From Rhodanobacter sp. T12-5 (GTDB lineage: Bacteria; Pseudomonadota; Gammaproteobacteria; Xanthomonadales; Rhodanobacteraceae), in NCBI RefSeq assembly GCF_008329435.1, contig NZ_NPKN01000001.1, forward strand, positions 434,001 to 498,000: a stretch of 64,000 nt of DNA. Reading direction: 5' to 3'. This document shows positions 17,499 to 34,464 of this stretch, one piece after another (position 1 is the first letter of the stretch; the number at the start of each line of letters is the position of its first letter). Made by a program: the position numbers and the translations under genes. The notes under the pieces were generated by a model, which saw only the letters and a list, made by a program, of their open reading frames with translations, was not told the DNA's origin and ran no database searches.

Positions 17499-17551
17499 AC
17501 ACGACATACTGCGTTCCCATAGGCTGGCAGCCGAACCCAGGGAGAACGTTG

Positions 17552-19075
17552 ATGACGCGTCCGCACCTTTACCTCGCCGCCGCCGCGATGCTTGCGCTGG
17601 TGGCATGTTCCGGCAAACCTTCTGCCTCGTCCGGCCCGGCCGCGATGGCAGCCACACCCACTCCCAGTACCTCCGTCGCCTCCGAGCGCGGCGACTTCGG
17701 CCCGCCGCAGGGCGAGCCGATCCACGCCGTGCTGACCAGTCCGCCGCACGTGCCGCCACCGATCCATCGCAACTACCCGGCCAAGGTCATCGTGGAACTG
17801 GAGGTGATCGAAAAGGAAATGCCGATTTCCGAGGGCGTGAGCTACACGTTCTGGACCTTCGGCGGCACCGTGCCGGGCAGCTTCATCCGCGTGCGCCAGG
17901 GCGACACGGTGGAGTTCCACCTGAAGAACAACCCCAACGACAAGATGCCGCACAACATCGACCTGCACGGCGTGACCGGTCCGGGTGGTGGTGCGGCGTC
18001 CAGCTTCACTGCGCCGGGGCACGAGTCGCAGTTCACCTTCAAGGCGCTCAACCAGGGCATCTACGTCTACCACTGCGCCACCGCGCCGGTCGGCATGCAC
18101 ATCGCCAACGGGATGTACGGGCTGATCCTGGTCGAGCCGCCGGAGGGCCTGAGCCCGGTCGATCACGAGTACTACGTGATGCAGGGCGACTTCTACACCA
18201 CCGGGAAGTATCGCGAGAAGGGCCATCAGCCGTTCGACATGGAGAAGGCGATCGACGAGCGTCCGACCTATGTGTTGTTCAACGGCAAGGAAGGCTCGAT
18301 CACCGGCGACAACGCGCTGACCGCCAAGACCAACCAGAAGGTGCGCCTGTTCGTGGGCAACGGCGGCCCGAACCTGATCTCCAGCTTCCACGTGATCGGC
18401 GAGATCTTCGACAAGGTGCAGCCCGAGGGCGGCACGGTGGCGCAACACAATGTGCAGACCACGCTGATCCCCTCCGGCGGTGCCGCGATCGTGGAGTTCC
18501 GCACCGACGTGCCGGGCAGCTACGTGCTGGTCGACCACTCGATCTTCCGCGCGTTCAACAAGGGCGCGCTGGGCATCCTGAAAGTGGACGGCTCGGAGAA
18601 CAAGTCGGTCTACTCGGGCAAGGAGGTGGACTCGGTCTACCTGGGTGACCGCGCCGGCAGCAACCTGCAGGCCGTGACCACCGCCGCCACGGCGCATGCC
18701 GCCGGTACGCTGACCAAGGAAGACCAGATCGCCGCGGGCAAGCAACTGTTCGCCGGCACCTGCTCGGTCTGCCACCAGGCCAACGGCGAGGGCCTGCCGA
18801 ACGTGTTCCCGCCGCTGGCGAAGTCGGATCTCCTCGCGGCCGATCCGAAGCGCGCCATGACCATCGTGACGCACGGCCTGACCGGCAAGGTCACCGTCAA
18901 CGGTCACGAATACGATTCGGTGATGCCACCGATGTCGCAGCTGACCGACGACGAGGTGTCCAACATCCTGACCTATGTGCTGAACAGCTGGGGCAACCCG
19001 GGTGGCCAGTTCAGCAAGGATGAGGTGGCCAAGGCACGCGCGGCTGCAGCGTCGGCACCGGCAGCGGAGCACTGA
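17552..19075 (+). CDS. nirK: Copper nitrite reductase fused to cytochrome c (NirK)
   Basis: The 507-residue enzyme reduces nitrite to NO. Two cupredoxin domains carry type 1 copper ligands H134, C175, H183 and M188, and type 2 ligands H139, H174 and H329. The catalytic residues D137 and H280 are present. A C-terminal cytochrome c domain follows, with CSVCH at 404-408 and a MPPM axial ligand region, as in three-domain NirK of Ralstonia type. The N-terminus ([10 protein letters not shown]) looks like a lipoprotein signal, so the enzyme may be membrane-anchored in the periplasm. ATG at 17552 follows GGAGAA. nirV and a SCO gene follow. Confidence 0.96.
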
Positions 19076-21932: not shown

Positions 21933-22217
21933 ATGCAAGCTATCCAGTCGTTGTACCCGCACCGAGCCGACAACGCCGCGCCGGCCGAACTCGATCTGCG
22001 CGGGCTGCCGTCACCGGAGCCGATGCTGCGCGCGCTGGAGGCGGCCGATGCGTTGCTGCCCGGGCAGTCGGTGCAGGTGCTCACGCCGCTGTTGCCGATG
22101 CCCTTGCTCGATGCGCTGGCGACGCGCGGGCTGTACACGTCGGCGGTCACGCTGCCGGGCGGCACCGCACGAGTGTTGATCCGCCGTCGGGATGACGATG
22201 GCCCGGCTGGCGCTTGA
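21933..22217 (+). CDS. DUF2249 protein (TusA-like fold without the catalytic cysteine)
   Basis: The 94-residue protein has LDLRGLPSPEPMLRALEAAD, which matches the TusA/SirA opening motif except that Ser replaces the sulphur-carrying Cys of CPxP. A beta-strand pattern (VQVLTPLLPMP, TARVLIRR) completes the small alpha/beta fold. DUF2249 genes often occur in denitrification clusters; the function is unknown. It is first in an operon that continues through nadB. The next gene overlaps it by 26 bases. Confidence 0.8.
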   Translation: MQAIQSLYPHRADNAAPAELDLRGLPSPEPMLRALEAADALLPGQSVQVLTPLLPMPLLDALATRGLYTSAVTLPGGTARVLIRRRDDDGPAGA

Positions 22218-23451
22218 TCAGGCGCCCGCGGTCTCGTTGCCGCGCCGCTTCCTGCTGAGTGCGCCGCTGTGGGGCGTGCTCGCCGGCATGTTGTTGTTCG
22301 TCGATGGTGATGCCTTGCTGCGCTCACGCTGGCATCCGGCCACGCTGGCACTGGTGCATGTGTTCACGCTCGGCGTGCTCGGCAACGTGATGTTCGGCAG
22401 CATGCTGCAGTTTCTTCCCGCGGCCGCCGGGGTGCGGGTGCGTGGCAGCGCGTTGTTGGGAGCGCCGCTGCATGTCCTGTTCAATCTCGGCGCGCTGCTG
22501 CTGGTGGCGGGGCTGCATCAGAGGTGGCGTGCGGCACTGCTTGGTGCCGCGGTGCTATTGCCGCTGGCTTTCGTTCTGCTCGCCGCGATGACCTTGCCCG
22601 GCCTGCTGGCAGCGGTCGGGCAGCGGCTGCTGCGCGCGGGGCTCGGCGTGGCGATCGGGTTCGGCGTGCTCACTGCGCTGCTCGGTGGTGCACTGGCGCT
22701 GGCTCTTGCTGACGGGTGGGCGTGGCCGGTGGGCGCGCTGGTCGACGTGCATGCCAGCTGGGGCGTGCTGGGTTGGATCGTGGTGTTGCTGGCCAGCGTG
22801 GCGCGGGTGGTGATGCCGATGTTCCAGGGCACCGGAACGCTTCCCGCACGGGTGCAGGCGCTGTGGCTCGGCAGCGCGCTGGTGATGCTGTCCGGCGCAG
22901 CGTGGTGGCGCTTGACTCACGCCGATGGCCGCTGGCTGGTCGGTACGGTGGCGTTGCATGCAATGCTGTTTGCAGGCGCCGCCTTGTGGCTGCAGTGGCG
23001 CGCGCCGCGGCAACGCCGCAGCCCGCTGCTGTGGAGCTGGCGTGCCGGTTTGATCGTGCTGTCGCTGGCGGCGCTGGCACTGGTCGCCGGGCCGCGTGGC
23101 GGACTGCTGGCTGCGGTGCTGGGGCTGGGTATCGCCTTGCCGCTGCTGCTGCTCGGCATGGCGCTGGAGATCGTCGCCTTCATCGGCTGGATCGAGTTGC
23201 ACCGGGTGTGCGGTCGCGGCGTGCAGTTGCCCGGTGTGCAGCGGCTGCTGCCCGACAGCGACAAACTCGGTGTGCTGCTGGCGCAACTGCCGCTGCTGCT
23301 GTTGCCGGCCGCGGCGTTGTGGCCTTCGGCCTGGCTGGCGCGCGCCGCCGGGTTGGCGCTGCTGTTCGCGTGGCTGGGCGTGTGGTCGGCGCTGCGCGGC
23401 GTACGCAGGCGCGCACATGGTTTTCTGTTGGCGTTGGAGGATCGCCCGTGA
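22192..23451 (+). CDS. NnrS-like polytopic membrane protein
   Basis: The 419-residue protein is almost entirely hydrophobic, with about 12 predicted helices. LALVHVFTLGVLGNVMFGSMLQFLP in helix 2-3 resembles the His-Thr-Leu-Gly haem-contact motif of NnrS proteins. VDVHASWGVLGWIVVLLASVARVVMP adds another conserved His (motifs quoted in part). It is not a close copy of the NnrS at 16172. It may bind haem or copper in the inner membrane; the role is inferred from context only. The stop overlaps the GTG of the DGC gene by four bases. Confidence 0.65.
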   Translation: MTMARLALDQAPAVSLPRRFLLSAPLWGVLAGMLLFVDGDALLRSRWHPATLALVHVFTLGVLGNVMFGSMLQFLPAAAGVRVRGSALLGAPLHVLFNLGALLLVAGLHQRWRAALLGAAVLLPLAFVLLAAMTLPGLLAAVGQRLLRAGLGVAIGFGVLTALLGGALALALADGWAWPVGALVDVHASWGVLGWIVVLLASVARVVMPMFQGTGTLPARVQALWLGSALVMLSGAAWWRLTHADGRWLVGTVALHAMLFAGAALWLQWRAPRQRRSPLLWSWRAGLIVLSLAALALVAGPRGGLLAAVLGLGIALPLLLLGMALEIVAFIGWIELHRVCGRGVQLPGVQRLLPDSDKLGVLLAQLPLLLLPAAALWPSAWLARAAGLALLFAWLGVWSALRGVRRRAHGFLLALEDRP

Positions 23452-23867
23452 GCGCGAAGTTGCCGCTGGTCTATTCCTGTTCCGGCTGTTCGAGTGCGGC
23501 GCAGATGGCCAACCATCTGGCGCTGAAGCTGGATCGCGAAGGCATCGCCGAGATGTCCTGCATCGCCGGCGTCGGCGGTGGCGTTACCGCCCTGGTGCGC
23601 ACGGCGCAGAGCGGGCGTCGCATCCTGGCGCTGGATGGCTGCGTGCTGAAGTGCGCCTCGGCCTGTCTTGCGCATGCAGGCGTCGTCGCCGACACGCACC
23701 TGGTGCTGTCCGACTACGGTGTGCGAAAGCGCCAGCATGCCGATTTCAATCTCACCGAGGCGCAGCAGGTATACGCGGCCGAGGTGCGCCCGGCGGCGCT
23801 GGCACTGTTTGAGGCGATGACCGCCGGATCACCCATGGAGCCTGCCGATGTTGCTGCCCAACCCTGA
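23448..23867 (+). CDS. DGC-domain putative zinc-binding protein
   Basis: A GTG start overlapping the previous stop gives 139 residues. Cysteines cluster in VYSCSGCSSAAQMAN, MSCIAGVGGG and LALDGCVLKCASACLAHAG. The DGC motif and spacing match the family annotated as putative zinc-binding or DGC-domain proteins. It could be a small redox or metal carrier for the operon. Its stop overlaps the start of the chorismate mutase-UbiT gene by 20 bases, indicating translational coupling. Confidence 0.75.
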   Translation: MSAKLPLVYSCSGCSSAAQMANHLALKLDREGIAEMSCIAGVGGGVTALVRTAQSGRRILALDGCVLKCASACLAHAGVVADTHLVLSDYGVRKRQHADFNLTEAQQVYAAEVRPAALALFEAMTAGSPMEPADVAAQP

Positions 23868-24708
23868 GCGTCTCGCGCTGGCGCGCATGCGCGGTGCGAT
23901 CGACCGTGTCGACGATGGCCTGATCGTGCTGCTCGCCGCACGCCGTCGGCTGGTGCGCGTGGTGGCGGCGCTGAAGCCGCGTGCCGGCGTGCCGCCGCGT
24001 GACCTGGCGCGCGAGCGGCAGGTGCGCACGCGCACCCAGTCGCTGGCACACCGGCTGGATCTGCCGGCGGATACCGCGGCGGGTCTGCTGGACCTCGCGA
24101 TCGTCGATGCCTGTCGTCAGCAGGGCATGGCGATTGACCTCGATCAAGGCGCGCTCGCGCCGTCTCCCGCCATGATGCAGCCCATCATGCCCGACACGCT
24201 TCGCTCCGAATCCCGCGCACTGCATTGGTTGCGCCTGCTGCCACCGCCGCGCCGGCTCGCGCCGCTGCTGCGCGCGCTGCCACAGCGCTGGCAACGCAAC
24301 CTGCTGGAGCGTGCGATGGCGCGCGTGCTCGCCGTGCCGCTGCAGGACGGCACGCTGGATTTCATGCGCGGTCGCCGGCTCGGGATCGAGGTCAGCGACC
24401 TGCAACTGTGCTGGGTGCTGGAATGGTGCGATGGACGCTTGTGCGTCGGTGATGGCGTACCTGAAGCCAGCGTGCGCGGCAGTGCCACCGATCTGCTGCT
24501 GCTGGCCAGCCGGCTGGAAGATGCCGACACGCTGTTCTTCCAGCGCGCGCTGGAGCTCACCGGCGATACCGAGCTCGGCCTTACCGCGCGCAACCTGCTG
24601 GAGCGGTTGCCGTGGGAGTCGGTGCCGTTGGGACTGCGCATCGCGCTGAACCGCGGCGCGCGCTTCGCCCGCGCCGCCCGCGCCGCACACCGCGGCGAAG
24701 CCGTCTGA
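23848..24708 (+). CDS. ubiT: Chorismate mutase (AroQ type)-UbiT fusion protein
   Basis: The 286-residue protein joins two domains. Residues about 8-93 are an AroQ chorismate mutase: R15, R32, K43, D52, R55, E56 and Q92 fall at exactly the spacing of the E. coli mutase active site. Residues about 114-286 are an SCP2 lipid-binding domain that closely resembles E. coli UbiT, including DADTLFFQRALELTGDTELG. UbiT binds ubiquinone intermediates in the oxygen-independent hydroxylation pathway with UbiU and UbiV, both encoded at 29.8-31.7 kb. The mutase half could also be an isochorismate-pyruvate lyase. An Fnr-type box sits inside the linker. Confidence 0.88.
   Translation: MLLPNPERLALARMRGAIDRVDDGLIVLLAARRRLVRVVAALKPRAGVPPRDLARERQVRTRTQSLAHRLDLPADTAAGLLDLAIVDACRQQGMAIDLDQGALAPSPAMMQPIMPDTLRSESRALHWLRLLPPPRRLAPLLRALPQRWQRNLLERAMARVLAVPLQDGTLDFMRGRRLGIEVSDLQLCWVLEWCDGRLCVGDGVPEASVRGSATDLLLLASRLEDADTLFFQRALELTGDTELGLTARNLLERLPWESVPLGLRIALNRGARFARAARAAHRGEAV
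24134..24147 (+). promoter_or_regulatory. Fnr-type box inside the chorismate mutase-ubiT gene
   Basis: TTGACCTCGATCAA, one base from consensus, lies in the linker codons between the two domains. In-frame ATGs follow at 24172, 24175 and 24187. A -41.5 position would place a transcript start near 24182, allowing the UbiT domain to be made alone from 24187. Chance occurrence is possible. Confidence 0.4.
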
Positions 24709-24743: not shown

Positions 24744-25769
24744 ATGACCGCCTCCGCAACGCTGCCCGTGCCGGTCTGGCGCGACGAACTCGAACACGAG
24801 TACGCCGCGCTGGCCGAGCGCCTGGAACCGCTGGTGCCGTGCCTGGAAATATCCCTGCACCTGCCGTGGATCGAAGCCATCAACACGCTGAAGAAGCAGC
24901 GCGGTGCGGTGATCATGGCGCACAGCTACCAGTCGCCGGAGATCTTCCACGGCGTGGCCGACATCACCGGCGACTCGCTCGGCCTGGCGCAGGCGGCGGC
25001 CGACTGCGACGCCGACCTGATCGTGTTGTGCGGCGTGCACTTCATGGCCGAGAGCGCAAAGATCCTGGCGCCGGGAAAGACCGTGCTGATTCCCGACCTC
25101 GAAGCCGGCTGCTCGCTGGCTTCGTCGATCACTGCCGCCGACGTGCGTGCGCTGCGCGCGCAACACCCCGGCGTGCCGGTGGTGAGCTACGCCAACACCT
25201 CGGCCGCGGTGAAGGCGGAGTCCGACGCGATCTGCACCTCGGCGAATGCGGTGCAGGTGGTCGAGTCGATGGGCACGGGCAAGGTGATCTTCCTGCCCGA
25301 CGAGTACCTGGGCCGCCACGTCGCCAGCCAGACCCGGGTCGAGCTGGTGCTGTGGCACGGCCGCTGCGAGGTGCACGAGAAGTTCACCGCGCAACAGGCG
25401 CGGCACGCGCGCGAACAGTTCGACGCGATGCTGGTGGCGCATCCGGAGTGTCCGCCGGAGGTACTCGCCGAGGCGGATTTCGTCGGTTCCACCACGGCCA
25501 TGGGCAAGTGGCTGGAACGCGAAAAGCCGGCACGCGTCGCGTTGATCACCGAGTGCTCGATGGCCGACAACCTGCGCGCACAGTTCCCGGCGACGCAATT
25601 CATCAAGCCGTGCAACCTGTGTCCGCACATGCAGCGGATCACCCTGCCGAAGATCTACGAAGCCCTGCGTGACCTGAGGCATGCCGTGGAGGTGCCGCCG
25701 CAGGTTGCCGTGCGTGCCCGCGCGGCGCTGCAGCGGATGCTGGCCGTGGGTCGGCGCGAAACCGTGTGA
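24744..25769 (+). CDS. nadA: Quinolinate synthase
   Basis: The 341-residue 4Fe-4S enzyme condenses iminoaspartate with dihydroxyacetone phosphate to quinolinate in NAD synthesis. Family motifs are IMAHSYQSPEIFHGVADITG DS-type N-terminal region, LCGVHFMAESAKIL, VVSYANTSAAVKAESD and CNLCPHMQRI, which include the cluster cysteines. It forms an operon with nadB (four-base overlap) and lies 35 bases after ubiT. The cluster is oxygen-sensitive, which fits an anaerobic island. Confidence 0.95.
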   Translation: MTASATLPVPVWRDELEHEYAALAERLEPLVPCLEISLHLPWIEAINTLKKQRGAVIMAHSYQSPEIFHGVADITGDSLGLAQAAADCDADLIVLCGVHFMAESAKILAPGKTVLIPDLEAGCSLASSITAADVRALRAQHPGVPVVSYANTSAAVKAESDAICTSANAVQVVESMGTGKVIFLPDEYLGRHVASQTRVELVLWHGRCEVHEKFTAQQARHAREQFDAMLVAHPECPPEVLAEADFVGSTTAMGKWLEREKPARVALITECSMADNLRAQFPATQFIKPCNLCPHMQRITLPKIYEALRDLRHAVEVPPQVAVRARAALQRMLAVGRRETV

Positions 25770-27205
25770 GGCGCGAACGTCGACCCATCGTGGTGGTAGG
25801 CGGTGGCGTGGCCGGTCTGGTCACGGCGCTTGCCGCGGCGCCGGCGCCGGTGCGCCTGCTGTGCCGTGCGCACGACGGCAGCGGCAGTGCCAGCGCGCTG
25901 GCGCAGGGTGGCATCGCCGCCGCGCTCGATCCGCACGACAGCACCGCTGCGCATGCCGGCGACACCATCGAGGCGGGCGCCCGGCACAACGACGCGACTG
26001 CGGTGCAATGGCTGACCGGCGAGGCGCCGGGCGCGATCGCCTGGTTGCAGCAGCAGGGCGTGCGGTTCGATCGCGGCGTCGACGGCAGCCTGCAGCTGGG
26101 TCGCGAGGGCGGCCATGGCGCCGCGCGCATCGTGCACGCCGGCGGCGATGCCACCGGCGCGGCGCTGGTGCGCGCGCTGCGCGCCAGGGTGCAGTCGTCG
26201 GCGCATGTGCAGTGGCGCGGTGGCGTCGATGTCGATGCGCTGTTGTTGCGCGATGGTGCCGTGGTCGGTGTGCGCACCCGCGACGAGCGTGGCCGCCGGC
26301 AACACATGGAGGCCGCCGCGGTGGTGCTTGCCACCGGCGGCATCGGTGCGCTGTTTGCGCACACCAGCAATCCGGCCGGTGCGGATGGTGCGGGGCTGGC
26401 GCTGGGCCTGGCCAGCGGCGCCGCGTCGCGCGATCTGGAGTTCATGCAGTTTCATCCCACCGCGCTGGATGTCGACGGCCATTGCCTGCCGCTGATCACC
26501 GAGGCTCTGCGCGGCGCCGGTGCGCGCCTGCTCGATGCCGCCGGGCAACCGCTGATGCGCGGCCTGCATCCGCTCGGCGATCTGGCGCCGCGTGATGTGG
26601 TGGCCCGCCGCGTCTGGCAGATGCAGCGCGAGGGCGGCAAGGTCTGGCTCGATGCGACGGCGGTGAGTGGCGACTGGAACCTCCGCTTTCCCACCGTGCT
26701 GGCGGCGTGCCTGGCGCATGGTCTTGATCCGCGGCAGGTGCCGCTGCCGGTGACGCCCGCCGCACATTTCCACATGGGCGGCATCGCCACCGACCTGGAT
26801 GGGCGCAGCACCTTGGCCGGCCTGCACGCGGTGGGCGAGGTTGCCTGCAACGGCGTGCATGGCGCCAACCGGCTGGCCAGCAATTCGCTGCTGGAAGGGG
26901 TGGCGTGCGGTCGCCGGCTCGGCGCCGCGCTGGCGATTGCCGCGCCGGTGCGCAGTGGACCGGGCAGCCATCGCTGGGCCGAGCGTGGCGACGGTTTGCC
27001 ACCGGCAGCGCTGGCCGCGTTGCGCACGCTGCTGTGGCATGCCGCCGGTCCGGTGCGCGAGGCATCGTCATTGCGCGACGCATGGCGTGCCTGTGCGGCT
27101 GCCGCGGACGCCGGCTGGCAGATGCGTCTGGCCAAATCGCTGCTGCGCGCGGCCGCGTTGCGCCGGCGCAGCCTCGGCGCGCATTGTCGGCTTGATCGCG
27201 GCTGA
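25766..27205 (+). CDS. nadB: L-aspartate oxidase
   Basis: A GTG start overlapping the nadA stop gives 479 residues, shorter than the roughly 540 of E. coli NadB. The FAD motif VVVGGGVAGLVTALAAA, the loop GSASALAQGGIAAALDPHDS and the active-site HFHMGGIATDLDGRSTL with NGVHGANRLASNSLLEG are all present. It makes iminoaspartate for NadA. The enzyme can use fumarate instead of oxygen as electron acceptor, so it works anaerobically. The shorter C-terminal helical region is the main difference from the family. Confidence 0.94.
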   Translation: MRRERRPIVVVGGGVAGLVTALAAAPAPVRLLCRAHDGSGSASALAQGGIAAALDPHDSTAAHAGDTIEAGARHNDATAVQWLTGEAPGAIAWLQQQGVRFDRGVDGSLQLGREGGHGAARIVHAGGDATGAALVRALRARVQSSAHVQWRGGVDVDALLLRDGAVVGVRTRDERGRRQHMEAAAVVLATGGIGALFAHTSNPAGADGAGLALGLASGAASRDLEFMQFHPTALDVDGHCLPLITEALRGAGARLLDAAGQPLMRGLHPLGDLAPRDVVARRVWQMQREGGKVWLDATAVSGDWNLRFPTVLAACLAHGLDPRQVPLPVTPAAHFHMGGIATDLDGRSTLAGLHAVGEVACNGVHGANRLASNSLLEGVACGRRLGAALAIAAPVRSGPGSHRWAERGDGLPPAALAALRTLLWHAAGPVREASSLRDAWRACAAAADAGWQMRLAKSLLRAAALRRRSLGAHCRLDRG

Positions 27206-29827: not shown

Positions 29828-30709
29828 TCATGCCGGCGCTTCGGTCAAGCGCATGCCCGGCTCGCCGTACCAGTAGCCGTTGCGCGCGCCGATGCGTGGC
29901 GGCGCCACCGGTGAGCGGCGGGCGAGGTGGTAGTGCGCCACCATCTCGGCCATGCCTTCGGCCTGCGGATACAGCCGCAAGATGTCCACGCCCAGTTCGC
30001 GCAGCACCGGCAGCTCGGGGCCGAGGTCGGTGATCTCCTCGCCCTGGATCTGGATGCCGTTGATGCGCAGGAACGGGCGGCCCTCGCGCGTGGCCAGCGG
30101 CATGCCGTCGGGATAGTCGATGCAGCGGAAGCCGCACTGGTCTTTCGCCACGTCGAGTGCGCGTGCGGTGAAGCAGCGTGCGGAGAAAGCCAGCGGCAGC
30201 CGGCCGAATGCGATCACTTCGAGCTCGGGCATCGTCCTGCCTTGCGCCTGCATCGCCTCGCGCAATTCACGCAGCAAGGTGTGGCCTTGTTCGACACCCG
30301 GCACCCAGCGGCGCAGGCCGTCTTCCATCAGCATCGCCAGCGTCTGGTGGTTGTAAACGTTGAGCGTGGGGCCGGCCACGAACGGCACGCCGCGCTCGCG
30401 ACACAGCTGCACCGCGGACAGGTCGTTCGCCTCGATCCAGCAGTCGCCGTGATCGACCAGCCGCTGCAGTGCGCCCAGCTCGGACTCGGCTTCGATCAGC
30501 GCCAGCGAGGACAGCACGATCTGCTTGCCGCTGCGGGCAAGCTCGGCGGCCAGCGCGATCCAGTCGCGTGTACCGAGTTCGCGCCGCTTGCTGCATACCG
30601 TCTCGCCCAGATAGATGACGTCGACCGGCCAGTCGGCGGCCTCGCGGTAGAACGCCAGCGTGCGTTCGCGCGGCCAGAAATACTGCAGCGGTCCGAGGCT
30701 CAGTTTCAT
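29828..30709 (-). CDS. ubiV: Oxygen-independent ubiquinone hydroxylation protein UbiV (U32 family)
   Basis: The 293-residue protein begins MKLSLGPLQYFWP, matching E. coli UbiV from the first residue. The four cluster cysteines lie at C39 (ETVCSKRRE), C179, C192 and C196, against 39, 180, 193 and 197 in E. coli. UbiU-UbiV is a 4Fe-4S heterodimer that hydroxylates ubiquinone precursors under anoxia, working with UbiT. An ATG three codons earlier (30718) is an alternative start. It directly follows ubiU. Confidence 0.95.
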   Translation of the reverse strand: MKLSLGPLQYFWPRERTLAFYREAADWPVDVIYLGETVCSKRRELGTRDWIALAAELARSGKQIVLSSLALIEAESELGALQRLVDHGDCWIEANDLSAVQLCRERGVPFVAGPTLNVYNHQTLAMLMEDGLRRWVPGVEQGHTLLRELREAMQAQGRTMPELEVIAFGRLPLAFSARCFTARALDVAKDQCGFRCIDYPDGMPLATREGRPFLRINGIQIQGEEITDLGPELPVLRELGVDILRLYPQAEGMAEMVAHYHLARRSPVAPPRIGARNGYWYGEPGMRLTEAPA

Positions 30710-30720
30710 CGTCGTCATCG

Positions 30721-31719
30721 TCAATGCCAGGAGCGGTGATAGGGGCCGAGCGTGGTCTGGTGACCCTCGGCGTGTTTCGACAGCGACTGCTGCCAGCCGG
30801 GCTGCAGGCTCCAGCTGGCGGGAGCGTCGCGGTAGCGGTCCAGCGCCGCACGCCAGGTGCGGGTGACCGAACCCACATACGCCACGCCGCGCTGGCGCCC
30901 CTCGATCTTCAACGCCGCCACGCCGGCCTGCGCCAGTCGCGGCAGCAGCTCCAGCGTGTTCAGGCTGGTCGGTTCCTCCAGCGCGTGGAAGATCTCGCCG
31001 CCGACTTCGAAGCGGCCCTTGCACACGGTCGGATAGCCGGCCGGTTCGCGCGGTTCGAAACGGTCCATCAGCACCTGGTTGAGGCGTACGCTGCGGCGAC
31101 CGTCGTCGTGTTCCTCCCAGCGCACGAAGCTGGCCGGCGAACACACGCCGTGGCGGTTCGGCGAGGCGCCGGTGACGTAGCTCGACAACTGGCAGCGGCC
31201 CTCGACCATGATGCACAGGCTGCCGAACGCGAACACCTCCAGCGGCACCGGCGAGCCTTCGCACAGGCGTTCGACCTGCTGGATCGACAGCACCCGCGGC
31301 AGCACCGCGCGGCTGATGCCGAAGCGCTCGTAGGCATAGCGCAGCGCGGGCGCGGTGGTGGCCGAACCTTGTACCGACAGATGCCGCTTGAGTGATGGAT
31401 GCGTGCGCGTGGCGTAGTCGAGCACGGCCATCTCGGCGGCAATGATCGCGTCGCAGCCGAACTCGGCGGCCTTGTCCACCGCGCTGTACCACTGCGGCAG
31501 GCGCGCGCTGTCGGGATAGGTGTTCAGCGCCAGGTAGACCTGCCTGCCGCGCTGGTGCGCGTAGGCGATGCCATCGCGCAGTTCGTCGTCGCTGAAGTTC
31601 AGCCCGGGAAACGCGCGGGCGTTGGTCTGGTCGCGGAAGCCCGCGTAGACCGCATCGGCGCCGGCGTCGATCGCCGCTTGCAGCGCCGGCAGGTTGCCGG
31701 CAGGACAGACCAGTTGCAT
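30721..31719 (-). CDS. ubiU: Oxygen-independent ubiquinone hydroxylation protein UbiU (U32 family)
   Basis: The 332-residue U32-fold protein has cluster cysteines at C169, C176, C193 and C233, almost the same numbering as E. coli UbiU (169, 176, 193, 232), within FGSLCIMVEGRCQLSSYVTG and HGVCSPASF. The N-terminus MQLVCPAGNLPALQAAIDAG is characteristic. It pairs with UbiV in anaerobic ubiquinone synthesis. A longer ORF starts inside the Fnr-type box, so the ATG at 31719 is used. ubiV follows within a dozen bases. Confidence 0.96.
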   Translation of the reverse strand: MQLVCPAGNLPALQAAIDAGADAVYAGFRDQTNARAFPGLNFSDDELRDGIAYAHQRGRQVYLALNTYPDSARLPQWYSAVDKAAEFGCDAIIAAEMAVLDYATRTHPSLKRHLSVQGSATTAPALRYAYERFGISRAVLPRVLSIQQVERLCEGSPVPLEVFAFGSLCIMVEGRCQLSSYVTGASPNRHGVCSPASFVRWEEHDDGRRSVRLNQVLMDRFEPREPAGYPTVCKGRFEVGGEIFHALEEPTSLNTLELLPRLAQAGVAALKIEGRQRGVAYVGSVTRTWRAALDRYRDAPASWSLQPGWQQSLSKHAEGHQTTLGPYHRSWH

Positions 31720-31777
31720 GAGCACCTCGAAGCTGGGAGTTCGGGGCGCATCGTGGCGGTTGCCCGGGGCGGCTGCG

Positions 31778-31791
31778 TTGACGTGGATCAT
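31778..31791 (-). promoter_or_regulatory. Fnr-type box of ubiU-ubiV
   Basis: On the plus strand this reads TTGACGTGGATCAT; the TGA-N6-TCA core is intact with two departures from consensus. It is centred about 65 bases before the ubiU ATG. Confidence 0.6.
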
Positions 31792-31842: not shown

Positions 31843-32208
31843 TCAGCCGGTGCGGCGCGCGCGCCGGCTCCTTGCTCCGCGCGAGTCGGTGTCGCTTGCG
31901 CAGTAGATACCGTACAGCGTGGCGATGATGGCGTGCGCGGGGCCCGCGGGCAGGGTGTACCAGACGGTCTGCGCTTCGCGCCGGGTACTGACCAGGCCTT
32001 CGTCGCGCAGCCGGGCCAGGTGCTGGGACAGCGCCGACTGGCTGAGTTCGGGCAGTTGCTCGTTGATCTGCCCCACCGACATCTCGCCGTCCAGCAGCAG
32101 GCACAGCATGCGCAGCCGCTGCGCATTGCCCAGCGTCTTGAGCAGCTGCGAGGCCTCTTCGGCGCGCGACTGCATGAGGTCCAGGTCCGCATCGGCCGGC
32201 ATGCTCAT
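31843..32208 (-). CDS. ArsR-family repressor of BigR/SqrR (persulfide-sensing) type
   Basis: The 121-residue winged-helix protein has LSQSALSQHLARLRDEGLVS with TRREAQTVWYTL, typical of the BigR/SqrR/YgaV subgroup. Two cysteines, C36 (RMLCLLLDGE) and C103 (YGIYCASD), are 67 residues apart, as in BigR, where they form a disulphide or tetrasulphide with sulfide-derived persulfides. It should repress the divergent sulfide genes. ATG at 32208 follows AAGAAGG; an ATG at 32247 is possible. Confidence 0.88.
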   Translation of the reverse strand: MSMPADADLDLMQSRAEEASQLLKTLGNAQRLRMLCLLLDGEMSVGQINEQLPELSQSALSQHLARLRDEGLVSTRREAQTVWYTLPAGPAHAIIATLYGIYCASDTDSRGARSRRARRTG

Positions 32209-32266
32209 CGGGTGAACCTTCTTGATGCGCGCGATTGCCTGTTTCATGGAATTGACTTTACCATGA

Positions 32267-32281
32267 TATCTAATTAAGATA
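32267..32281. promoter_or_regulatory. Candidate BigR/SqrR operator
   Basis: TATCT-AATTA-AGATA is a perfect AT-rich dyad in an otherwise GC-rich genome. It lies between the ArsR gene and the divergent DUF2892-DUF302 genes, the position expected for autoregulation and control of the sulfide operon. Confidence 0.6.
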
Positions 32282-32369
32282 AAGCTAATTTAGATGACAT
32301 TGATTTATCCGGGAGGGCCAGCGATTGCTGGCCTCCCGCCGGTTTCCACCCCATCGCAGGAGTTCCGCC

Positions 32370-32576
32370 ATGAATGTCGATCGCATCGTTCTGGGTTTCG
32401 CCGGCACCGTCGTGCTGGTGGGTATCGCGCTGGCGCACTTCGTGGCGCCGGGCTGGATCTGGCTCCCGGTGTTCGTGGGCGCCAACCTGCTGCAGTCCTC
32501 GTTCACCGGCTTCTGCCCGCTGGCGATGCTGCTGCGCAAGCTGGGCCTGAAGCCCGGTTGCGCCTTTCCGTCCTGA
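32370..32576 (+). CDS. DUF2892 (YgaP-like) small membrane protein
   Basis: The 68-residue protein is MNVDRIVLGFAGTVVLVGIA followed by a second helix and GFCPLAMLLRKLGLKPGCAF. It has two membrane helices and two conserved cysteines (FCPL, GCAF). The same domain forms the membrane anchor of the YgaP rhodanese. It lies next to a BigR-like repressor, as in other sulfide-response loci. ATG follows AGGAG. Confidence 0.85.
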   Translation: MNVDRIVLGFAGTVVLVGIALAHFVAPGWIWLPVFVGANLLQSSFTGFCPLAMLLRKLGLKPGCAFPS

Positions 32577-32604
32577 GTGGCGTTGCGTCGAGCCGAGGTG
32601 AACC

Positions 32605-32988
32605 ATGTATTACATCGTTGAAACATCCAAGACGCCGGAACAGGCCGCCACCGACCTGGCCGAAGCGGTCGTGCGCAACGGCTTCGGCGTGCTGCACGTG
32701 CACGATCTGGGCGCCACCCTGCGCAGCAAGGGCGTCGCGTTCGAGCGCCAGTGCAAGGTGTTCGAAGTGTGCAATCCGCAGCAGGCGGCCAGCGTGCTGG
32801 CGGCGGACATGCGGCTGAACATGGCGCTGCCGTGCCGCATCTCGGTCTACACCGACGGCGGCAAGACCTGGATCGGCATGATCCGGCCGGTGCGGATGTT
32901 GGGCATGCTCTCGACCGATGCCGCCCTGGTTGCGACGGCGGGCGAAGTGGAGCAGGTCGTCACGCGCATCATCGACGAGGCCCGGTGA
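32605..32988 (+). CDS. DUF302 protein
   Basis: The 127-residue protein has the DUF302 pattern: VVRNGFGVLHVHDLGATLRSKG, then CKVFEVCNPQQAASVL, then LPCRISVYTDGGKTWIGMIRP. The fold is a small alpha/beta dimer of unknown function. Cysteines at CKVFEVC and LPCR may matter in a sulfide context. It is 28 bases after the DUF2892 gene and probably in the same operon. Confidence 0.85.
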   Translation: MYYIVETSKTPEQAATDLAEAVVRNGFGVLHVHDLGATLRSKGVAFERQCKVFEVCNPQQAASVLAADMRLNMALPCRISVYTDGGKTWIGMIRPVRMLGMLSTDAALVATAGEVEQVVTRIIDEAR

Positions 32989-33156
32989 AATGCCGCGGCC
33001 GTACCGGCGCCCCGCGGCGCCGAAACCAGGTCGGATCCCTGCGTGAAGTCCCTGCGGGTCTTGCCGGCACCATCGCCTGCCGAGTTGACCACGCTCAAGT
33101 CCTCCCCGGCTTTGATGGCACACGCTGCCAGCATCCCCTCTGAGCAGGAGTCTGCC

Positions 33157-34464
33157 ATGTGCGACGTCGTCATCATTGGTGCGGGTCTGGGCGGCATGAG
33201 TGCCGCCTATGAAATCAAGGCCACGTTGGGTAGCGCCCATCGCGTCACGGTGGTCGGCGAGGGTGGCCTGTTCTCGTTCACGCCATCCAACCCGTGGGTA
33301 GGCATCGGCTGGCGCGAGCCTGCCGACGTGCAGATCGACGCCGCGTCGGCGCTGGGCCGGCACGACATCGCGTTCGTCGACTCGCCGGCCAGCGCGGTCC
33401 ATCCGGCGGAGAACCGCGTGCTGCTGCAGGATGGCCGCGAGCTGAAGTACGACTACCTGGTCATCACCACCGGCCCGCGCCTGGCCTTCGACGAAATTCC
33501 GGGGCTGGGGCCGCTAGCCGGTTACACGCAATCGGTCTGTACCACGGCGCATGCGACCGCTGCCTGGCAGGCCTACGAGGCGTTCCTGCAAGCGCCCGGC
33601 CCGGTGGTGGTCGGCGCCGCGCAGGGGGCGAGCTGCTTCGGCCCGGCCTACGAGTTCGCGATGATCCTCGACACCGATTTGCGCCGGCGCAAATTGCGCG
33701 ATCGGGTGCCGATGACGTTCGTCACGCCGGAGCCGTACATCGGCCACATGGGACTCGGCGGCGTGGGCGATTCCAGGGGACTGCTGGAGAAGGAGCTGCG
33801 CCAGCGCCACATCAAGTGGATCACCAATGCACGCATCGACAAGGTCGAGCCCGGCGTGATGCAGGTCAGCGAGCATGACGCGCACGGCCAGGTGCTGGAG
33901 ACTCACGCGTTGCCGTTTGTCTACTCGATGGTGATCCCCGCGTTCACCGGCGTGGCCGCGCTACGCGGCGTCGAGGGACTGGTCAATCCGCGCGGCTTCG
34001 TGCTGATCGACAAGCACCAGCGCAATCCGGCGTTTCCGAACATCTTCTCCGCCGGCGTGTGCGTGGCGATCCCGCCGGTGGAGGTGACGGCGGTGCCGAC
34101 CGGGGCGCCCAAGACCGGCTTCATGATCGAATCCATGGTCGGTGCGCTGGCTGCCAACATCAAGGCCGCCATCGACGGCAGGCCCGCCACCGCCGAGGCG
34201 ACATGGAACGCGGTGTGCCTGGCCGACATGGGCGACAGCGGCGCGGCGTTCGTGGCCATTCCGCAGATCCCGCCGCGCAATGTCACCTGGGCGAAGCAGG
34301 GCAAGTGGGTGCATCTGGCCAAGGTCGCGTTCGAGAAATACTTCATGCACAAGATCCGCTCGGGCAACACCGAGCCGGTCTACGAAAAGTACGTGATGAA
34401 AGCCCTCGGCATCGAACGGCTCAAGCCGGCGACGCAGCCCGAGGGCGTGATTCCACCCCGATGA
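33157..34464 (+). CDS. sqr: Sulfide:quinone oxidoreductase family protein
   Basis: The 435-residue flavoprotein has FAD motif VVIIGAGLGGMSAAYE at the N-terminus. Two redox cysteines occur in the expected regions, GAAQGASCFGPAYE and FSAGVCVAIPPVE, plus one in YTQSVCTTAHA. SQR oxidises sulfide to sulfane sulphur and reduces the quinone pool at the inner membrane. PTGAPKTGFMIESMV in the C-terminal half is typical of the family. ATG at 33157 follows a GGAG; a longer in-frame ORF exists. It lies downstream of the BigR-controlled genes. Confidence 0.88.
   Translation: MCDVVIIGAGLGGMSAAYEIKATLGSAHRVTVVGEGGLFSFTPSNPWVGIGWREPADVQIDAASALGRHDIAFVDSPASAVHPAENRVLLQDGRELKYDYLVITTGPRLAFDEIPGLGPLAGYTQSVCTTAHATAAWQAYEAFLQAPGPVVVGAAQGASCFGPAYEFAMILDTDLRRRKLRDRVPMTFVTPEPYIGHMGLGGVGDSRGLLEKELRQRHIKWITNARIDKVEPGVMQVSEHDAHGQVLETHALPFVYSMVIPAFTGVAALRGVEGLVNPRGFVLIDKHQRNPAFPNIFSAGVCVAIPPVEVTAVPTGAPKTGFMIESMVGALAANIKAAIDGRPATAEATWNAVCLADMGDSGAAFVAIPQIPPRNVTWAKQGKWVHLAKVAFEKYFMHKIRSGNTEPVYEKYVMKALGIERLKPATQPEGVIPPR

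Follow-up and report, generated by a model that had tools for sequence, protein, structure and literature searches.

A chorismate mutase fused to the ubiquinone factor UbiT: a candidate source of prephenate for oxygen-independent ubiquinone synthesis

A single gene of a Rhodanobacter genome encodes an AroQ-type chorismate mutase (CM) and the ubiquinone factor UbiT in one protein. We consider it probable that the product is an accessory factor with two functions in oxygen-independent ubiquinone synthesis, whose CM half makes the prephenate donor at UbiTUV. The gene lies in a stretch of 64,000 nucleotides, the whole of which we call the window.

UbiT is thought to hold lipid-bound ubiquinone intermediates for the Fe-S hydroxylases UbiU and UbiV, and chorismate mutase converts chorismate into prephenate. 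As it has been cited, a PNAS paper of 2024 reportedly identifies prephenate as the oxygen donor of anaerobic ubiquinone hydroxylation. That prephenate should donate oxygen for a hydroxylation has been claimed only recently and is an unusual idea, the chemistry of which is open (PMC11574389, in part). In 2023 the UbiUVT authors regarded prephenate as a possible oxygen donor (excerpt of PMC10470549). TrhP and RlhA, which belong to the same U32 family as UbiU and UbiV but, unlike them, act on tRNA and rRNA, offer a parallel: an excerpt of PMC6599085 states that TrhP needs prephenate and that RlhA, as reported there, needs it too.

In the mechanism that we propose, the N-terminal AroQ half, which is presumably active, would convert chorismate into prephenate, and the C-terminal UbiT half would hold the lipid substrate while UbiUV hydroxylate it. 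If prephenate is the oxygen donor of UbiUV, then the fusion would put donor synthesis beside the hydroxylases. A CM-UbiT fusion would be expected if donor supply mattered, because it would bring the enzyme that makes prephenate together with the protein that holds the lipid for hydroxylation by UbiUV. Since the linker between the two domains is variable and predicted to be disordered, we picture a tether that raises the local supply rather than a closed tunnel. We infer that the CM domain is active and dimerises the protein, that the fusion contacts UbiUV, and that prephenate is supplied locally, with a gain from its nearness.

A mutase that should make prephenate is joined here to a part of the pathway that uses it, and this gives the donor claim independent support from genomes. 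A single protein that may both make and deliver the donor would also be useful for an in vitro assay of UbiUV, which has been called challenging because the donor was then unknown (PMC6747719, in part).

Neither domain is new, and the pathway has been described before. What appears new is the joining of the two domains: in the literature searched, which did not extend to the full 2024 PNAS donor paper, we found no report that joins UbiT/YhbT or SCP2 to chorismate mutase. The protein resembles UbiT (YhbT), the SCP2 factor of O2-independent ubiquinone synthesis, in that it passes the cut-off of the UbiT model and has ubiU and ubiV about 5 kb away, but E. coli UbiT has 174 residues, is mostly SCP2 and carries no CM domain (excerpt of PMC6747719). 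The UbiT-UbiU fusion of Zymomonas mobilis likewise joins UbiT to a second protein and supports their acting together in the pathway (same excerpt); there, however, UbiT is joined to a hydroxylase, whereas in Rhodanobacter it is joined to a mutase able to make the donor.

The fusion gene, its protein and its setting

The protein of 286 residues comprises, in this order, the CM domain, a linker predicted to be disordered, and UbiT.

23848..24708, plus strand: cm-ubiT fusion gene, 286 codons and stop (open reading frame, Pfam and NCBIfam matches)
23878..24123, plus strand: AroQ-type CM domain, residues 11-92 (CM_2, alignment to 1ecm, Foldseek)
24136..24234, plus strand: linker, residues 97-129, predicted disordered (pLDDT <50; length differs among relatives)
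24268..24618, plus strand: UbiT (SCP2 lipid-binding) domain, residues 141-257 (NF047962; best Foldseek matches UbiJ-SCP2)

A single frame runs from an ATG at 23848 to a stop codon at 24706-24708, with no stop codon between the domains. The minus strand is likewise open across this stretch, as often happens at 67% G+C; this does not point to a gene there. The host genome comprises 3.98 Mb in 19 contigs, and the nearest named relative of the protein, from R. glycinis S10, is 99% identical across the fusion. The host is a soil bacterium.

Two Pfam families are recognised, CM_2 over residues 15-91 (E 7.6e-14, 52.1 bits, cut-off 27) and SCP2 over residues 166-251 (E 3e-13, 50.4 bits, cut-off 21.3), and the NCBIfam UbiT model NF047962 (cut-off 46.9) covers residues 141-257 with 121.8 bits; the same genome encodes UbiU and UbiV, as an assignment to UbiT calls for. 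No named NCBIfam CM equivalog reaches its cut-off (the best is PRK09239, with 49 bits against 120). Judged by these matches, the fused domain is a CM by domain and falls in no named CM subfamily. A gap-free phmmer alignment places R15, R32, K43, D52, R55, E56 and Q92 at positions 11, 28, 39, 48, 51, 52 and 88 of E. coli CM (1ecm), with S84 of the E. coli enzyme replaced by A88. These matches bear out the sequence-only reading of this DNA in two respects: it had described one frame with an AroQ and an SCP2/UbiT domain, and had matched the same seven residues by their spacing.

An AlphaFold2 model built from 14 sequences has a mean pLDDT of 63.6 and a pTM of 0.39, the SCP2 part being weaker than the CM part; ten-residue blocks of the CM part score between 68 and 89, and residues 97-129 of the linker score below 50. 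The predicted model has the AroQ helix topology (helices 6-46, 53-69 and 74-91). Foldseek aligns the CM part with 1ecm_A (rmsd 1.1 Å, TM (target) 0.87, E 4.4e-3), and the best matches of the fusion model are to the UbiJ SCP2 domain. The CM domain is thus like that of E. coli PheA (1ecm) and like monofunctional AroQ (PRK09239) in gap-free alignment, fold and seven catalytic positions, but it differs from the PheA domain in having Ala for S84, a lipid-binding partner instead of a prephenate dehydratase (PDT), and a clade of its own.

The features of the window that bear on the setting of the gene are as follows.

5669: HemN, oxygen-independent coproporphyrinogen oxidase
7133: Crp/Fnr regulator
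16160: NnrS
17549-19075, plus strand: NirK, copper nitrite reductase with a C-terminal cytochrome c domain
22192-23451: predicted membrane protein, no Pfam match, upstream of the fusion
23448..23867, plus strand: DGC-domain gene, GTG start assumed (PF08859, 117.5 bits)
24744..25769, plus strand: nadA, starting 35 bases 3' of the fusion gene
25766-27205: nadB, next after nadA
29828..30724, minus strand: ubiV, U32-family partner (NF047965, 357.6 bits, cut-off 275)
30721..31791, minus strand: ubiU, U32-family partner (NF047963, 526.2 bits, cut-off 440; model begins at residue 25 of the open reading frame)
31778..31791, plus strand: FNR/DNR-like box with 2 mismatches to the consensus, upstream of the likely ubiU start

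The DGC-domain gene overlaps the start of the fusion gene by 20 bases, and the two therefore probably form one operon. The window holds 27 matches, at up to 2 mismatches, to TTGATNNNNATCAA, which we take to be the consensus of the FNR/DNR-like box, against 7.4 expected; given that expectation, the box upstream of ubiU may be a chance match. HemN, the Crp/Fnr regulator, NnrS and NirK, together with this surplus of boxes, point to anoxic respiration as the setting, and by its gene content the window looks like an anoxic-respiration island. Upstream of the fusion gene, which is probably inside the operon, no FNR-like box is listed nearer than 20310. Among the 57 distinct fusion genes, by comparison, six have such a box (at most 1 mismatch, within 350 bases upstream), against 0.05 expected from simple shuffles.

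Beside ubiU, at 31843-34464, stand genes for an ArsR-type regulator resembling BigR (below the model cut-off), a YgaP-like membrane protein, a DUF302 protein and an SQR-like oxidoreductase, a set that suggests a sulphide-response cluster.

Other chorismate enzymes and the spread of the fusion

The only other CM_2 protein in the genome is a PheA of 362 residues with CM, PDT and ACT domains. A protein of 333 residues is a chorismatase of the FkbO/Hyg5 type (PF21168 above cut-off; TIGR04444 192 bits, below its cut-off of 325), and the genome search found no UbiC. XanB2 is presumably a chorismatase of this same type. It produces 4-hydroxybenzoate from chorismate (PMC8854274, in part). With PheA and the chorismatase elsewhere in the genome, the fused CM should not be needed for amino-acid synthesis or for supply of the ring. 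A search with PF01136 matched UbiU and UbiV only, with no third U32 protein, and thus TrhP and RlhA appear to be absent from the genome.

The sequence-only reading had tied the fusion to ubiquinone through 4-hydroxybenzoate. Because a chorismatase is present we rejected 4-hydroxybenzoate as the main link, and prephenate is the better-founded of the two. The general idea of that reading, a chorismate product made at the UbiT complex under anoxia, is supported; the reading as a whole was thus supported in part, with the direction right and the metabolite wrong, prephenate as donor not having been considered. PheA could itself supply prephenate, and this counts against our main reading.

Alternatively, the fused CM might simply be an additional mutase that serves phenylalanine and tyrosine synthesis, perhaps when oxygen is absent, and its fusion to a neighbour a matter of chance. 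We think this unlikely, given that a PheA with all three domains is already present, and the distribution of the fusion also speaks against it. We counted a fusion where a match spans from residue 15 or earlier to residue 279 or later. By this count the fusion occurs in 42 of 299 genomes of the order sample, in four families (codes f1-f4), and in 37 of 147 genomes of the family sample; among the named genomes that carry it are those of Rhodanobacter, Dyella, Lysobacter and Thermomonas. Its presence across family and order genomes rules out an oddity of one strain, and the 57 distinct fusion sequences, each a single stop-free frame, rule out chance or sequencing error as its source.

The fusion keeps company with UbiU: a UbiU match is found in 42 of 42 fusion genomes of the order sample (that of G213 partial and below cut-off) and in 37 of 37 of the family sample, where the two samples overlap and the counts ignore common descent. 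None of the 107 family genomes without UbiU has an intact fusion. G018 and G031, both without UbiU, retain only broken CM remnants, that of G031 with a stop codon inside it. Both patterns speak for our main reading, and neither is what an extra mutase for amino acids would lead one to expect.

The association has exceptions. Among UbiU-positive genomes the fusion is missing from 3 of 45 in families f1-f4 of the order sample (G007, G036 and G176) and from 3 of 40 in the family sample (G007, G036 and G103). In G036 and G103 a CM belonging to the clade of the fused domains survives, detached, elsewhere in the genome. G007, together with Rhodanobacter fulvus (L035) and Rhodanobacter sp. Root480 (L034), which are named genomes outside the sample counts, has kept UbiUV and lost the CM domain of UbiT, and a CM_2 search of G007 found none beyond its PheA-like one. 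These three close relatives, with UbiUV but a CM-less UbiT, count against the main reading, as does G031, in which UbiU has been lost, yet the UbiT part is still open. Inside the order, seven sampled loci with a free ubiT (L106-L110, L114 and L115) have no linked CM within the fetched flanks.

Free mutase genes beside ubiT in other lineages

From other gammaproteobacterial families we took 86 ubiT loci, keeping listed matches with E up to 1e-8 and dropping weaker ones. UbiT is found in all 86 and UbiU nearby in 66. Five loci, from five other families, have CM encoded by a separate gene at a distance of 150-311 bases from the ubiT domain, and their 0.93 Mb held no further CM. The chance that all five would lie so near ubiT is 2e-7 under random placement, one CM being given per locus window. 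Four are divergent from ubiT; the fifth (L101) lies 3' of it and is followed by fabA and fabB.

That free CMs adjoin ubiT in five other families supports our main reading and again argues against a chance fusion of an extra mutase. On the other hand, the genomes G607 (L103) and G554 (L164) have the CM beside ubiT as the only CM_2 found, and it may therefore serve the whole cell; a ubiT-linked CM can thus be the general one. The other three of the five genomes contain a second CM_2. The sole CM_2 of G607 and of G554 is without the usual Gln88.

We hand-picked 60 more ubiT loci for family spread among the matches listed, 36 outside the class and 24 inside. No linked CM was found in these 60 (0/36 outside the class). 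Thus 5 of the 146 ubiT loci sampled outside the order have a linked CM, and the 141 that have none within the fetched flanks indicate that a linked CM is not required. For 27 of the 36 UbiT loci outside the class (L200-L235), UbiU is missing within the fetched flanks; some of these loci may encode UbiT-like proteins of another role, or may have unlinked ubiUV.

In E. coli numbering, all five free CMs have R11, R28, K39, R51 and E52, but D48 is present in one and Q88 in none, so that their activity is less sure than that of the fused domains; for activity they may depend on binding to UbiT or UbiUV. Fused CMs and three detached copies form one clade in the CM tree (support 99/98). The tree, which has several long branches and a bootstrap that had not settled, sets the free CMs apart from the fused ones; one joint clade still fits (AU p 0.37), and independent origins of fused and neighbouring CMs are thus unsupported. 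A broader form of the proposed reading, in which fused and neighbouring CMs alike are dedicated donor synthases of UbiTUV, with prephenate produced within the complex and passed on to its Fe-S hydroxylases, is one that we put forward tentatively, as possible but somewhat short of probable. If this is true, an enzyme for an organic oxygen donor would be built into the machinery that uses that donor.

Genus g15 (L086, L087 and L089) has an unfused CM of the fusion clade, flanked by a membrane-protein gene on one side and by fabA on the other; FabA was tested for L086 and L087. In G014, a genome without UbiU, this detached CM has Arg for K39.

Selection on the mutase domain

Across the 57 distinct fusions, R11, R28, K39, R51 and E52 are kept in every one, position 48 is Asp in 55 and Asn in two, and position 88 is Gln in 56 and His in one; these counts refer to rows collected by a profile of this CM domain, which badly decayed copies would escape, with CM-less UbiTs listed apart. 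Adding the window protein as a further row leaves the picture unchanged. Position 84, S84 in E. coli CM, is Ala in 50 of the 57. Median pairwise NG86 dN/dS, computed for the window and 25 chosen relatives over pairs with dS between 0.1 and 1.5, is 0.34 for CM, 0.77 for the linker (residues 93-125) and 0.21 for UbiT. The CM and UbiT domains evolve more slowly than the linker, and purifying selection has been kept in the CM domain.

These data bear on a second alternative, that the CM domain is kept as a module for dimerisation or for sensing chorismate or prephenate, with no significant catalysis. E. coli CM and PchB each form a dimer of intertwined chains (PMC12329711, in part); with dimeric AroQ relatives such a domain would dimerise UbiT, and both the predicted flexibility of the linker and the lack of Q88 in the free CMs beside ubiT would suit this reading. 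We nonetheless give it little credence. All 57 fusions share the five catalytic residues R11, R28, K39, R51 and E52, although no more than 12 columns of the alignment are conserved at 95% or above, and a free CM beside ubiT cannot act as a domain of UbiT.

Finally, the sequence-only reading had allowed that the N-terminal domain might be an isochorismate-pyruvate lyase, and one may add any other chorismate converter that feeds or drains the ring precursor. The fold family is common to PchB, the isochorismate lyase model is matched by one of 14 aligned members (2.7e-05) and the broader CM-like model TIGR01803 by five of the 14, but we regard this as very improbable, as the NCBIfam lyase model is not among the matches of the window protein at E up to 0.1 and the genome has a chorismatase to provide the ring precursor. 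The residues tell against it too: where the lyase PchB has Val (Val55) and Ala in place of Glu52 and Asp48 of E. coli CM (excerpt of PMC12329711), the fusions have the acidic Glu in 57 of 57 and Asp in 55 of 57.
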